From Candidatus Azobacteroides pseudotrichonymphae (GTDB lineage Bacteria > Bacteroidota > Bacteroidia > Bacteroidales > Azobacteroidaceae): 64,000 bases of DNA. A program made the translations under genes and the position numbers. Under the pieces are notes generated by a model. That model was not told the origin of the DNA. It did not search any database and saw only the letters and a program-made list of their open reading frames with translations. Where the stretch lies: assembly GCA_002091395.1 (NCBI GenBank), contig AP017913.1:1-64000 (forward strand). Reading direction: 5' to 3'. Shown here piece after piece: positions 15,894 through 56,680 of the stretch; position 1 is the stretch's first letter, and every line of letters begins with the position of its first letter.

Positions 15894-16445
15894 ATGTTAA
15901 ACAAAAAAATTATACTTGGAATAACTGGAAGTATAGCAGCTTATAAAGCTGCTATACTTGTTCGTATTTTAATAAAAAAGGGAGCTGAAGTACAGATTTT
16001 AATGACTAAATCAGGGAAAAAATTTATCACACCTGTTACATTATCAACATTAACAAATAAACCAGTAGTAAGTGAATTTTTCACTTCAAACAATGGCAAA
16101 TGGAATAGTCATGTTGATTTAGGATTATGGGCGGATATAATGTTGGTGGCTCCAGCAACAGCTTCTACTATTGGCAAGATGGCAAATGGAATAGCTGATA
16201 ATATACTGATAACAACTTATTTATCTATGAGATCCTCTGTATTTATAGCACCAGCCATGGATTTAAATATGTTTAAGCATCCAACAACACAAAGTAATCT
16301 TGATAAATTAAAATCATATGGCAATCATATAATTACACCTACAATTGGTTATTTAGCTAGTTCATTAGAAGGTAAAGGAAGAATGGAAGAACCAGATGTA
16401 ATTGTAAAAATTCTAGAAGATTTTTTAAAAAAAAAACACAATTAA
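15894..16445 (+). CDS. coaBC: CoaBC, CoaC half (phosphopantothenoylcysteine decarboxylase)
   Basis: CoaC is the flavin decarboxylase of coenzyme A synthesis. The start is ATG 15894 (MLNKKIILGITGSIAAYKA), not the TTG three codons earlier. Seen: SIAAYKA near residue 12, the catalytic histidine segment SHVDLGLWADIMLVAPAT near 65, PAMDLNMFKHP near 115, and the flap GKGRMEEP. The flap Cys of E. coli (LACGxxGxGRM) reads LASSLEGKGRM here, so the usual Cys is absent. The frame stops right after a T6A10 tract. With one extra A it runs on into the CoaB half; the joined gene, 15894-17098, encodes 401 residues, the standard CoaBC length. Confidence 0.9.
   Translation: MLNKKIILGITGSIAAYKAAILVRILIKKGAEVQILMTKSGKKFITPVTLSTLTNKPVVSEFFTSNNGKWNSHVDLGLWADIMLVAPATASTIGKMANGIADNILITTYLSMRSSVFIAPAMDLNMFKHPTTQSNLDKLKSYGNHIITPTIGYLASSLEGKGRMEEPDVIVKILEDFLKKKHN
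15929..15959. repeat. Perfect 14-bp hairpin at the start of coaBC
   Basis: AAGTATAGCAGCTT, loop ATA, AAGCTGCTATACTT, with no mismatches. It lies 36 bases into the coding sequence and encodes the conserved SIAAYKAAILV segment. It has the same arm length and loop length as the hairpin at 1507-1537. In the mRNA it could slow early ribosomes. Confidence 0.55.
16427..16436 (+). promoter_or_regulatory. A10 slippage tract joining CoaC and CoaB
   Basis: TTTTTTAAAAAAAAAACAC. With ten A the frame reads KKKHN and stops; with eleven A, or after a -1 ribosomal shift, it reads KKKTQLIGKRVLITAGPTYE, which is the conserved CoaB beginning. The function as a slippage site is inferred. Confidence 0.55.
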
Positions 16446-42363: not shown

Positions 42364-42807
42364 ATGAAACTAAAAATTGTTAATCAATCTAATTATCCAT
42401 TACCAAATTATGCTACTCCATACTCAGCAGGATTAGATATAAGAGTTGTAATCAACGACAATAATAAAGAAATACTACCAAAACAAAAATTGATCTATAA
42501 TACAAAATTATTTATTGAAATTCCAAAAAATTACTACGGAATGATAGTTTCAAGAAGTGGATTATCTTGTAAATCAGGGGTAGCGGTAATAAATTCTCCA
42601 GGTATTATTGATTCGGATTATCGAGGCGAATTATTAATTACGTTAATTAATCATGGAGATTCAATTTATTACGTAAATAATGGTGAAAGAGTCGCACAGC
42701 TTATTATTATGAAATATGAAAGAATCGAATTAACTACAACTAAAAAATATAACTTAAACAAAACAAAAAGATTAGATGGACATTACGGTTCAACAGGAAT
42801 ATTATAA
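42364..42807 (+). CDS. dut: dUTP diphosphatase
   Basis: Dut hydrolyses dUTP to dUMP, keeping uracil out of DNA and feeding dTMP synthesis. The 147-residue protein shows the trimeric dUTPase motifs: PYSAGLDIRV near 20, SRSGLSCKSGV near 63, SPGIIDSDYRGEL near 79, NGERVAQLII near 108, and the C-terminal P-loop-like arm LDGHYGSTG (usually GFGSTG). The arm's HYG in place of GFG is a mild deviation. It begins a dut - TPR - (gap) - EnvC order familiar from Bacteroides. Confidence 0.95.
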   Translation: MKLKIVNQSNYPLPNYATPYSAGLDIRVVINDNNKEILPKQKLIYNTKLFIEIPKNYYGMIVSRSGLSCKSGVAVINSPGIIDSDYRGELLITLINHGDSIYYVNNGERVAQLIIMKYERIELTTTKKYNLNKTKRLDGHYGSTGIL

Positions 42808-43366: not shown

Positions 43367-43636
43367 ATGAAAAGAAAAGCATCTAATTTTATTATCTATA
43401 CACTAACATTACTAATATTTCATTGTGGTTATCTTTTTTCAGAAGAATTGTCATACGACGATAGATTCAAATCTGATTATTTTTTTTTAGAGTCAATACA
43501 CCATAAACAAAAAAACGAACACACACAATCTTTCAATGCTTTACAATATATACTGAAATTTGATTCTTTATCTTCCGCAGTTTTATATGAATTGTCGAAA
43601 TATTATATTTTTTTTAAAAAAAAAAGCTTGCATTAG
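43367..43636 (+). CDS. TPR protein, N-terminal part (split at an A10 tract)
   Basis: The 89-codon frame begins with a signal peptide (MKRKASNFIIYTLTLLIFHCG) and the first helices of a tetratricopeptide array (LESIHHKQKNEHTQSFNAL, AVLYELSKYYIF). It ends right after T8A10 with KKKSLH and a stop. With one more A it reads KKKKLALVSLQKAVSYDHKN, a typical TPR helix pair, and continues into the frame at 43702-45027. The joined protein would be 553 residues, exported to the periplasm or outer membrane. In Bacteroides a TPR protein of this kind follows dut. Confidence 0.7.
   Translation: MKRKASNFIIYTLTLLIFHCGYLFSEELSYDDRFKSDYFFLESIHHKQKNEHTQSFNALQYILKFDSLSSAVLYELSKYYIFFKKKSLH
43616..43625 (+). promoter_or_regulatory. 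A10 slippage tract in the TPR gene
   Basis: TTTTTTTTAAAAAAAAAAGC. Ten A give a stop four codons later; eleven A, or a -1 shift, join both halves. It is the same length and the same required shift as in coaBC. Confidence 0.55.
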
Positions 43637-45027
43637 TTTCTTTACAGAAGGCAGTATCCTATGATCACAAAAATTTCGACTATAGAATAGCCTTAGCTAA
43701 TTTGATCCAAAATTTTAAAAATGATAATGACAAAACTATTGATATGTATGAAAAATTACTAAAAGAAGATACACAAAATACAGAATTATATTATTATTTG
43801 AGCAAACTATATATAAAACAACAGAATATAAATAAAGCTATTGAGACATTAAATAAAATTGAGAATAACATAGGGATAAGTGAGTTTATTTCTCTACAAA
43901 AATCACAATTATATAAATCAATTGGTAAAGAAAATCAAGCATTAAATGAAATAAAACTTCTAGCAAGAAGAAATCAAACAGAATCTAAATATCAAATTTT
44001 TATTGGTGATTTTTATTTAAATAAAAATGATATAGAAAAAGCATTATTATGCTATAAAAAATCGCAAACAATTAATCATAACAATCCATATTATTATATT
44101 GCAATCTTCAATTTTTATAACAAAAAAGGCAATAATAATGCTGCTATAAAAGAAATAAAAAAGGCGTTTAATGACTTCACATTAGATGTAGAAACAAAAT
44201 TAAATATTCTTGAAATATTTATTAATAATTCATACATAAATAATAAAGACAAAAAAATAACATATTTATTATTCGAAATTTTGCTAAAACAATATCCACA
44301 AAATAAAAAATTAAATCTTTTTTATGAAAAATTTCTACTTCAACAAAGTAGTTGGAAAGAAGCTAAACTTCAACTCAAGATTGTTTCTACATATGCAAAA
44401 AAAAATCTCGAAATATGGATGCAATTACTGAACATTGCTTTAAATAAAAATAATATTGATGAGGTTATTTTTATTTGTAATAATGCTTTAAATTATTTTC
44501 CTAATATTCCTGAATTTTATTTATATGAAGGGCTAGCTCTTATGACAAAAAAATCTTATAAGAATGCTTTATGTATTTATTTGAAAGGATTAAAAATTAT
44601 TTCAACAGATAATACCCAACTTTTATCTATTTTTTGTGAACAAATAGGTAACATTTACTACAAATTCGGACATAAGATAAAATCTTTCATTTTTTATGAA
44701 AAAGCTATTCATTATAATAATAAAAATATTATAGCATTGAACAACTACGCATATTACTTATCACTAACAAAAAAAAATCTAAACAAAGCCGAAAAAATGG
44801 CAAACACTGTCATTAACACGGAATATGATAACGCCACATACATAGATACATATCTAGGTATCCTTTTTAAACAAAAAAAATACTTATTAGCAAAATTTTA
44901 CATTGAAAATGTTTTTTTTAAAAAAAACATAATGAATAAGAATATTTTAAAATACTATAGTAATATCTTTTATATTTTAGGCGAAAGAGATAAAGCTATA
45001 TACGTATTGGGGAAAAGTTTTTTTTAA
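43626..45027 (+). CDS. TPR protein, C-terminal part
   Basis: The frame is open from the A10 tract to 45027; the first ATG is at 43702. It encodes about 12 degenerate tetratricopeptide units, for example DKTIDMYEKLLKEDTQNTEL, NINKAIETLNKIE, DIEKALLCYKKSQTINHNNP, KSFIFYEKAIHYNNKNIIAL and ALNNYAYYLSLTKKNLNKAE. The last resembles the lipoprotein-associated TPR proteins of the Bacteroidetes cell envelope. Without the signal peptide of the first part it would stay in the cytoplasm, so joining probably matters. The partner is unknown; the neighbourhood with EnvC hints at envelope work. Confidence 0.75.
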
Positions 45028-45645
45028 AATATATATTTTAAAAAACCACAAATGAAGCTAATCAAAAGATAATTAAAATTACAATTTTTATCAATACATA
45101 TTCAAAAATATACTCATAACTAAATTACAAATTTGCTACCTCAACTAGTTTTTTTACAAAAAACCAACAAAGTTGTACAATCTGAAATAAAGTACAATAC
45201 ATGATTCTTTTGAGAAGAATTTTTTTATTAGATTAAATAAAATTACTACTAAATACAAAAATTAAAATCATAAATAAATAAAACAACACCACTATCTTTA
45301 CTAATTACATTTTTGGAAAGAATATTGATAAAGTGATTTTTTACTTTTAGAGTAAAAAAATTCTTATAAATTATATTTATACATAAAAATAATTTATTTT
45401 GTCAACAGTACAAATCGCATCAAAAATATTACAATAAATATAGTATACGTACTATAAATCAAATCATAGAAAAAATGACTCCACAAATGTCTATGAATTT
45501 AACATCAAATAACAATTATAAATTGTATTCACTTTTTAAATCACTTAAATCGATACGATTTTTAAACTTATCAATTGATTTTCGAAAAAATATAAGAATA
45601 TTAATTAAAACAAATTATTCAGTATCTAAATTATTAAAAATAAAT
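45028..45645. other. Gap where a DUF4292-type gene would be expected
   Basis: In free-living Bacteroides, as I recall, a DUF4292 protein lies between the TPR gene and EnvC. Here about 600 bases hold no convincing gene. The frame in line with EnvC is open from 45475, but its 57 extra residues precede a signal peptide and are not expected to be translated. Confidence 0.35.
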
Positions 45646-46920
45646 ATGAGAATTTGGAGGATTATTATTTCATTATTATTATTATTCAGTTATGCTGTCC
45701 AAGCACAAGCAGTAAACAGTATAAAAGAATTAAAAAAACAAAGTAAAATACTCGCTAACGACATAGAAAACACAAATAAACTTATAAATAAAAATTTGAA
45801 ATCAATTCACGATATGTCACAAAACTTAGATTCAATAGTTAAAGAAATAAACAAAACACAAAAATCAATAATGATTTTGAAGAAAAAAATAAATATTTCA
45901 GACAATAAAATTTGTGATAAAAAAATACAAATTGATCAATTAGAAAAAACTCTAAAACTAAAAAAAATATATTACTCAGTTTATGCTAAAAAAATATACA
46001 AAATAAAAAATAGTCAAAATCAATTATTTTTCACTTTATTAAAAAACAATAGTACTCAATTTTCAACTAAAATACTGTATTTTAAAGAGTACAGTAAATT
46101 GATTGAAATACAAATAAAAAAAATTATTGATAAACTAAATATGACAACTGCAGAAAAACAAAATTTAGGACACGATAAACAAATCATGAAAACATTAATT
46201 GATATAAAAATAAAAGAAGAAAAAGAGTTACAAATACAAAAAAAAATAAGGAACGATAACATAAAAAATTTACATAAAAACATACTAAAATTTCAAATTC
46301 AAATAAATGAGAAGAAAAAACAAACTAAAACGATAGAAGAAGATATAAAAAAAATTATCATAGAACAATCTAAAGCTAGACAACGCATAAAAAGTATAAA
46401 TAAAATAAAATCCGAATGCAAGAAAAATAAAATAAAATCCGAATGCAAGAAAAATAAAATAAAATCCGAATGCAAGAAAAATAAAGAATGGAATTTATCA
46501 CCACATAGTATCGTAAAAATCAAAGAAAAATTTTCTTTTCCAATCAGTGGTGAATATCAAATTATTAGTCATTTTGGACATCAACAATATAAAAACATGA
46601 AAAATATTCAACATGACAATAATGGAATAGATATTAAAATAGATAAAGCAACTAATGCAAAATCTATTTTTGATGGAATAATTACAAATATTTTTTCTTT
46701 TACTGAATGTCAAAACTCTATTATGGTAAGGCATGGAAGTTATATAGCTCTTTACTCATTTTTAGACCAGATTTTTGTCAAAAAAGGAGAAAGAGTAAAA
46801 ACTGGACAAAATATTGGAACAGTATATACAGATCAAAAAAAAGGTAATTTAACAATTTTGCATTTTGAACTTTGGGAAGAAAATGTAAAACTAAACCCTG
46901 AGCTATGGCTATCACTATAA
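45646..46920 (+). CDS. EnvC-like murein hydrolase activator (degenerate LytM)
   Basis: The start is placed at ATG 45646 because it begins a clean signal peptide (MRIWRIIISLLLLFSYAVQA). Next comes a long coiled coil rich in Lys, Ile and Asn (about residues 25-300), with a 9-residue triple repeat KIKSECKKN near 253-280, and then a C-terminal LytM/M23 fold (FPISGEYQIISHFGHQQ ... FDGIITNIFSF ... VRHGSYIALYSFL ... KTGQNIGTVYTDQ ... HFELWEENVKLNPELWL). The zinc motifs are broken: HxGxD reads NNGID and HxH reads HFE, so it is probably not a peptidase but an amidase activator like EnvC, acting in daughter-cell separation. Length, 424 residues. Confidence 0.88.
   Translation: MRIWRIIISLLLLFSYAVQAQAVNSIKELKKQSKILANDIENTNKLINKNLKSIHDMSQNLDSIVKEINKTQKSIMILKKKINISDNKICDKKIQIDQLEKTLKLKKIYYSVYAKKIYKIKNSQNQLFFTLLKNNSTQFSTKILYFKEYSKLIEIQIKKIIDKLNMTTAEKQNLGHDKQIMKTLIDIKIKEEKELQIQKKIRNDNIKNLHKNILKFQIQINEKKKQTKTIEEDIKKIIIEQSKARQRIKSINKIKSECKKNKIKSECKKNKIKSECKKNKEWNLSPHSIVKIKEKFSFPISGEYQIISHFGHQQYKNMKNIQHDNNGIDIKIDKATNAKSIFDGIITNIFSFTECQNSIMVRHGSYIALYSFLDQIFVKKGERVKTGQNIGTVYTDQKKGNLTILHFELWEENVKLNPELWLSL
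46402..46490. repeat. Three 27-bp tandem repeats inside the EnvC-like gene
   Basis: TCCGAATGCAAG recurs at 46411, 46438 and 46465, a period of 27 bases, and units match exactly. Each adds KIKSECKKN, including a Cys, at the end of the coiled coil. Confidence 0.9.
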
Positions 46921-55437: not shown

Positions 55438-55978
55438 TCAGAACCATCTTCAAAAGATTCCACATTATCTTTAATCATGATGTTCTTGTTTTACTCCTAA
55501 CTTCATTTCACTTTTGTTTAAATCATTAGAAGAATTTTCTTTGTCTTCAGAACCATCTTCAAAAGATTCCACATTATCTTTAATCATGATGTTCTTTTTT
55601 ACTCCTAACTTCATTTCACTTTTGTTTAAATCATTAGAAGAATTTTCTTTGTCTTCAGAACCATCTTCAAAAGATTCCACATTATCTTTAATCATGATGT
55701 TCTTGTTTTACTCCTAACTTCATTTCACTTTTGTTTAAATCATTAGAAGAATTTTCTTTGTCTTCAGAACCATCTTCAAGAGATTCCACATTATCTTTAA
55801 TCATGATGTTCTTTTTTACTCCTAACTTCATTTCACTTTTGTTTAAATCATTAGAAGAATTTTCTTTGTCTTCAGAACCATCTTCAAGAGATTCCACATT
55901 ATCTTTAATCATGATGTTCTTTTTTACTCCTAACTTCATTTCACTTTTGTTTAAATCATTAGAAGAATTTTCTTTGTC
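55438..55978 (-). repeat. Five tandem 108/109-bp repeats forming and following the rpsB tail
   Basis: GAACCATCTTCAA recurs on the plus strand at 55441, 55550, 55658, 55767 and 55875: spacings 109, 108, 109, 108. In-frame units encode 36 residues (start DKENSSNDLNKSEMKLGVKK). The 109-bp units carry one inserted C in the gene sense (GTAAAACAAG against GTAAAAAAG), which shifts the frame into KQEHHD and a stop. Units group into a 217-bp pair that is itself duplicated; the three nearest tsf differ from the two nearest rpsB at one site (Phe or Leu codon). Confidence 0.93.
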
Positions 55979-56680
55979 TCTCGTATTATCGATACTTCTC
56001 TCTTTTTGACCTTCAACTATTGCAGCACAAATAGCGTTTAAAATTATATCTACAGAAGTAGGCGCATCATCATTTGCTGGGATAACAAAATCAACATCAT
56101 TAATATTAGAATTAGTATCTACTATTGCAAATACTGGAATATTCAGATTTTTAGCCTCTGCAACAGCAATATGTTCTTTTATTACATCTACAACAAACAA
56201 TGCAGAAGGTAAACGCTTCAAATCTACAATTGATCCTAAGTTCTTTTCTAGTTTTATACGTTTACGAGCAATCTGTAATTTTTCTCTTTTAGACAAGAAA
56301 TCAAAAGTTCCATCATGAGACATTCTATCAATAGTTACCATCTTTTTGATTGCTTTACGTATAGTGGGAAAATTAGTCAATGTACCACCAGCCCATCGTT
56401 CTGTAACATACGGCATTTTTACAATAGTAGCTTTATCAGTAACTATTTGCTTTATTTGTTTTTTTGTAGCAACAAACAAAATCTTACATCCTGATTTTAC
56501 AATTCGTTTAATAGCTTCAGCTGCTTCATTCAATTTTACAACTGTTTTATGCAAATCAATAATATGAATTCCATTTCGCTCCATAAATATATACGGCTGC
56601 ATCGATGGATCCCACTTCCTTTTCAAGTGACCAAAATGTGCACCTGATTCTAATAACTGTTCAAACGATACTCTTGACAT
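55688..56680 (-). CDS. rpsB: Ribosomal protein S2 with a repeat-built tail
   Basis: S2 is a 30S subunit protein. The core is normal: SRVSFEQLLESGAHFGHLKR, WDPSMQPYIFMERNGIHIID, VTERWAGGTLTNFPTIRKAI near 95, LPSALFVVDVIKEHIAVAEA and PANDDAPTSVDIILNAI, ending near residue 237 at GQKERSIDNTR. It then runs through two full and one partial copy of a 36-residue acidic-lysine repeat and ends in KQEHHD where a repeat unit carries an extra base. Total 330 residues, versus about 230-280 usual in Bacteroidetes. The tail would be disordered and solvent-exposed. Two further repeat units remain untranslated after the stop. Confidence 0.95.
   Translation of the reverse strand: MSRVSFEQLLESGAHFGHLKRKWDPSMQPYIFMERNGIHIIDLHKTVVKLNEAAEAIKRIVKSGCKILFVATKKQIKQIVTDKATIVKMPYVTERWAGGTLTNFPTIRKAIKKMVTIDRMSHDGTFDFLSKREKLQIARKRIKLEKNLGSIVDLKRLPSALFVVDVIKEHIAVAEAKNLNIPVFAIVDTNSNINDVDFVIPANDDAPTSVDIILNAICAAIVEGQKERSIDNTRDKENSSNDLNKSEMKLGVKKNIMIKDNVESLEDGSEDKENSSNDLNKSEMKLGVKKNIMIKDNVESLEDGSEDKENSSNDLNKSEMKLGVKQEHHD

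Follow-up and report, generated by a model that had tools for sequence, protein, structure and literature searches.

Buchnera and Blochmannia carry genes frameshifted at poly(A) tracts, reportedly the subject of Tamas et al. 2008 and Wernegreen et al. 2010. In the excerpted text of PMC5009743, 12-50% of the transcripts of genes with poly(A) frameshifts in these symbionts are corrected, and the portion of PMC3017870 drawn on here gives 8 broken genes for B. vafer, whose genome has 153 poly(A) tracts of at least 9 A within coding sequence. In Candidatus Walczuchella monophlebidarum, too, genes with homopolymer frameshifts have been marked as potentially functional (PMC3971599, in excerpt).

Here we describe a gene encoding TPR repeats that is split at an A10 tract in a 64,000-nucleotide stretch of Candidatus Azobacteroides pseudotrichonymphae (contig AP017913.1), the whole of which is referred to as the window. 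As far as the excerpted sources go, the locus resembles the Buchnera and Blochmannia cases in its AT-rich, reduced symbiont genome and in the single indel within a long A tract of a gene that is otherwise in one piece, and here too several genes, at least six besides this one, are hit, core ones among them. It differs from them in that the organism belongs to the Bacteroidota, that breaks were observed only at tracts of at least 10 A and that the TPR gene is eroded at its C-terminal end. With Walczuchella it shares, in what the excerpt covers, a Bacteroidota symbiont carrying homopolymer frameshifts, although Walczuchella is an insect flavobacterial symbiont with a genome of 0.31 Mb (PMC3971599).

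Results

The TPR gene starts with an ATG at 43367 and, about 240 bases further on, runs into T8 (43608-43615) followed by A10 (43616-43625). The initial annotation had placed the break at this T8A10 tract, with an N-terminal part that stops after it and a C-terminal part open from the tract onwards, and the sequence bears out all three points (Table 1). One extra A (or two bases fewer) fuses the halves, and translation with the added A yields the 553 residues that had been predicted for the joined protein. The N-terminal part is 53% identical to residues 8-97, and the C-terminal part 55% identical to residues 91-552, of the orthologue in the sister genome (G003), and the two match consecutive stretches of this single 587-aa protein. 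The frame changes precisely at the long A tract, with a single frame on either side, as expected of a gene rescued by slippage, while no further frame lesion was found across the joined 553 codons. The assembled sequence contains a genuine frame break. The gene product is a repeat-containing envelope protein conserved among Bacteroidales, for which PorW/SprE was considered as a possible identity.

Table 1. Coordinates of the split TPR locus and of the other genes broken at A tracts
Feature	Position	Strand	Basis and remarks
TPR gene, N-terminal part	43367..43636	+	ORF; ATG, 89 codons, signal-peptide-like start, ends SLH-stop just past the tract
T8A10 tract, site of the frame break	43608..43625	+	Sequence; homology changes frame at the tract
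TPR gene, C-terminal part	43618..45027	+	469 codons plus stop (45025-45027), other frame; translation, TPR Pfam matches
Site of lost LolB1/DUF4292 gene	45028..45630	+	Gene order in G003; no PF14125 in the window's genome (G000)
coaBC	A10, 16427-16436	+	Broken, same shift as the TPR gene; named by Pfam and NCBIfam
ispH/lytB	C1:304015		A10-A12 class; named by reading of the sequence
menA	C1:369435		A10-A12 class; named by reading of the sequence
aroC	C1:431071		A10-A12 class; named by reading of the sequence
argE-like peptidase	C1:767467		A10-A12 class; named by reading of the sequence
AEC-family transporter	C2:34873		A10-A12 class, opposite shift (one base fewer); named by reading of the sequence

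In the sister genome the genes run in the order dut, TPR, LolB/DUF4292, M23 peptidase, and the window's TPR gene, located between dut and the M23 peptidase gene, matches this placement. The window shares with the Bacteroidales dut-TPR-LolB/DUF4292-M23 cluster both the gene order and the orthologous TPR protein; it differs in lacking LolB/DUF4292 and in having a TPR gene that is divided and shorter. The relatives include termite-type Dysgonamonadaceae and Tannerellaceae MAGs and a Candidatus Azobacteroides record. Those that match over the full length, from the genus and from the order, carry the TPR gene uninterrupted in one frame, in most cases 572 to 609 codons long, and the frame break and the long tract are absent from every relative compared. 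At the equivalent stretch G003 reads FLNKEQLALNALRKA, where runs of A or T stay below 7, while FFKKK and KLALVSLQKA of the window align gap-free to the orthologues given exactly one added base; the long tract is thus derived. The relatives are intact; of the genomes compared, only this lineage has the break, and among these relatives the frameshift is not retained across species. A comparison of orthologues for tracts of 10 or 11 had been proposed in advance; it returned intact single frames, and none of the relatives has the long tract.

We surveyed homopolymer tracts (runs of at least 6 A or T, or at least 5 G or C) in 808 kb of the 1.02 Mb genome and in 1.10 Mb of G003, taken as stretches. 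A tract was scored when the translations up- and downstream of it match consecutive parts of one G003 protein, as intact if these lie in the same frame and as broken if they lie in different frames. The sample was deliberately enriched for A10 tracts, and its counts cover genes with a G003 orthologue, on the coding strand. On this basis no break was observed at A6 (1169 intact), A7 (506), A8 (319) or A9 (120), while intact and broken tracts numbered 47 and 4 at A10, 20 and 1 at A11, 4 and 2 at A12, and 4 and 0 at A13; tracts of T10 and longer were in frame throughout (11 intact, 0 broken). In conserved genes, 7/82 tracts of at least A10 are broken, or about one in twelve, when compared to 0/2114 at A6-A9, and the difference holds against A8-A9 (Fisher p = 1.9e-6). 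What is informative is the abrupt onset of breaks at ten A's. It agrees with slippage mutation at long runs and speaks against a sequence that is noisy overall, without proving rescue by itself.

Six of the seven broken tracts would be repaired by one additional base (or by the removal of two), the seventh by the removal of one (two-sided p = 0.125). It had been argued that random decay is unlikely to break two genes in the same direction at tracts of equal length. This does not hold: among long tracts A10 is the most frequent, and most breaks share that direction, so that the coincidence reflects hypermutable tracts and does not separate decay from rescue. One more base is also what undercalled homopolymers would be expected to require, and all breaks lie at the longest tracts, including those in genes expected to be essential; the chromosome might then carry A11, with the assembly undercalling the tract and the TPR gene unbroken at the site. 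We consider this unlikely, as 75 tracts of A10-A13 are in frame and none at A6-A9 is wrong, meaning that the sequence is not generally noisy, and one break goes in the opposite direction. The same six breaks are compatible with a -1 shift, and within the tract of the TPR gene there is an A AAA AAA heptamer in the correct phase, which would suit programmed -1 ribosomal frameshifting on an A-rich slippery sequence, giving two products by design. The heptamer is, however, not accompanied by a stable downstream structure (fold z = 0.26), the occurrence of tract and break in no relative speaks against a conserved recoding event, and the seventh break again has the wrong direction; programmed frameshifting is therefore highly improbable.

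Immediately 5' of the A tract, a T run of at least 6 was present at 3 of the 7 broken and 5 of the 75 intact tracts (p = 0.018, post hoc); it may be that breaks arise more readily at T-A junctions. A lower bound comes from another scan, which took in 529 orthologues and missed the TPR gene and menA through overlapping matches. Its sole further broken gene, near 479541-482015 on C1, is the orthologue of a 1120-residue G003 protein; it has several lesions, lies in several frames at low identity and is a conventional decayed pseudogene. In the sister genome, a candidate break was observed at an A9 tract (C5:811193, L113). A frame-switching coding HMM returned mostly gene overlaps, missed both known breaks and was dropped. 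The codon-model scan candidates at 655028 and 681011 are false positives caused by overlapping neighbouring genes, and upon inspection the homology-match candidates 455948/455990 and 175086/175104 were an antisense shadow and a shadow upstream of uvrA, respectively. No Rfam family was found in a search of the 64-kb window. The rpsB (S2) ORF (55688-56680, minus strand) carries in its C-terminal part near-identical repeats in tandem, each some 35 residues long (ENSSNDLNKSEMKLGVKKN...).

For the six broken genes other than TPR, the alignment with the G003 orthologue covers almost the whole length. Among them is coaBC, for which the break at A10 with the same shift had been correctly called by the initial annotation. 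Where a break falls in the synthesis of CoA, isoprenoids, chorismate or menaquinone, as in coaBC, ispH, aroC and menA, the gene is likely either rescued or undercalled at its tract in the assembly, and the same goes for the argE-like gene. Support for rescue is weaker in the TPR gene than in coaBC and the other broken genes.

The TPR gene had been taken to be otherwise clean, a description that fails at its 3' end. All aligned full-length orthologues continue with one more helix and then a conserved LKxKI tail, before which the window's C-terminal part stops. In the last TPR stretch (G003 residues 501-545), the window retains only 9/18 of the positions that do not vary among 12 relatives, while G003 retains 17/18; upstream of the last repeat the window retains 68/86 invariant positions (p = 0.017 when compared to the last repeat). 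As an example of the changes, DTYAWIFF has become DTYLGILF. The last TPR unit of the window is degenerate, and the conserved tail is lost.

The gene following TPR in G003 is LolB1 (NF053559, 84.9 bits with a cut-off of 50)/DUF4292 (PF14125), and a LolB/DUF4292 gene is found 3' of the TPR gene in the loci of 12 further relatives. A search for PF14125 detected it in 5/5 relatives searched and found none in the window's genome. Some 450 stop-rich bases separate the TPR stop from the M23 peptidase, and a weak remnant of the LolB C terminus at about 45487-45618 now shares the frame in which the M23 ORF starts (tblastn E = 4e-5, 900-base target). The first ~55 codons of this M23 peptidase ORF (45475-46920) seem to be a LolB remnant, and the ORF contains three copies of a KIKSECKKN-like repeat.

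Rescue by slippage should leave the rest of the gene undamaged, whereas here the tail is missing and the last repeat degenerate; with the loss of LolB, these are the added disabling changes and the partner loss expected under decay. More inactivating change downstream had been named beforehand as what would refute a maintained gene, and it was found in part (tail, last repeat, partner gene), the reading frame being otherwise open over 469 codons. The maintained slippage implied by the initial annotation is borne out in part: seven genes, several of them in indispensable pathways, show tract-specific breakage, and the TPR gene itself is eroded.

As a whole, the C-terminal part is not accelerated relative to the genome, as it would be in unconstrained decay. 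Unique changes on this branch and on that of G003 amounted to 58:37, 79:33 and 95:35 with G018, G020 and G015 as outgroups, respectively, and to 2422:1247 in total for all genes compared, while the excess loss of invariant residues is confined to the last repeat. About 1 in 15 random substitutions in this part would create a stop, yet 469 codons are open; together with the ordinary branch ratio, this means that the break is recent, or that the product is still partly made, or both. The break is probably recent or leaky. The highest branch ratio of all genes compared was that of dut (42364-42807), with 44:6, 47:6 and 39:3 versus G003 for the three outgroups.

An ordinary relative rate, and no other frame lesion in 553 codons, would equally be expected if the TPR gene were fully functional, with slippage giving enough in-frame mRNA, selection keeping both halves and the shorter C terminus being a harmless change of the lineage. 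In agreement with this, six other genes, several of indispensable pathways, are broken alike and aligned nearly end to end, and the ancient Blochmannia frameshifts provide a precedent in the excerpted parts of PMC3017870 and PMC5009743. Full function is nevertheless improbable, given the lost tail, the degenerate last repeat, the deleted LolB neighbour and a break that is conserved in none of the relatives compared.

Discussion

On balance we lean towards a contracted poly(A) tract in a TPR gene that is losing constraint, leaky via RNA polymerase slippage and pseudogene-bound, as opposed to a programmed recoding site. Tracts of at least 10 A are indel hot spots throughout this reduced, AT-rich symbiont genome, and an ancestral in-frame tract (A11 fits the orthologues gap-free) would have contracted by one base, breaking the TPR frame. 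By analogy with Buchnera and Blochmannia, slippage of RNA polymerase on the A run probably puts a minority of TPR transcripts back in frame. Constraint on the gene would be declining, with the C-terminal tail, the last repeat and the LolB neighbour eroded or gone, and the TPR gene would be a leaky gene heading towards a pseudogene. Against this explanation, the ordinary rate of the C-terminal part could equally mean continued function; besides, TPR tails can vary and the shortened protein may still work.

It is a bolder and more doubtful proposal, which we put forward tentatively, that this Bacteroidota gut symbiont runs CoA, isoprenoid, chorismate, menaquinone and arginine synthesis via poly(A)-broken genes that are read only through transcriptional slippage, nearly all breaks being repaired by one inserted base.

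Altogether, these data extend a phenomenon of insect symbionts to an Azobacteroides-like Bacteroidales lineage, in which a known class of defect can be given numbers (0/2114 versus 7/82). The ispH, aroC and coaBC genes form a clean test set for slippage, while in the TPR gene a broken tract coincides with the loss of a neighbouring gene. For annotators, an intact-or-dead verdict on such genes is unsafe if sequence is its sole basis.
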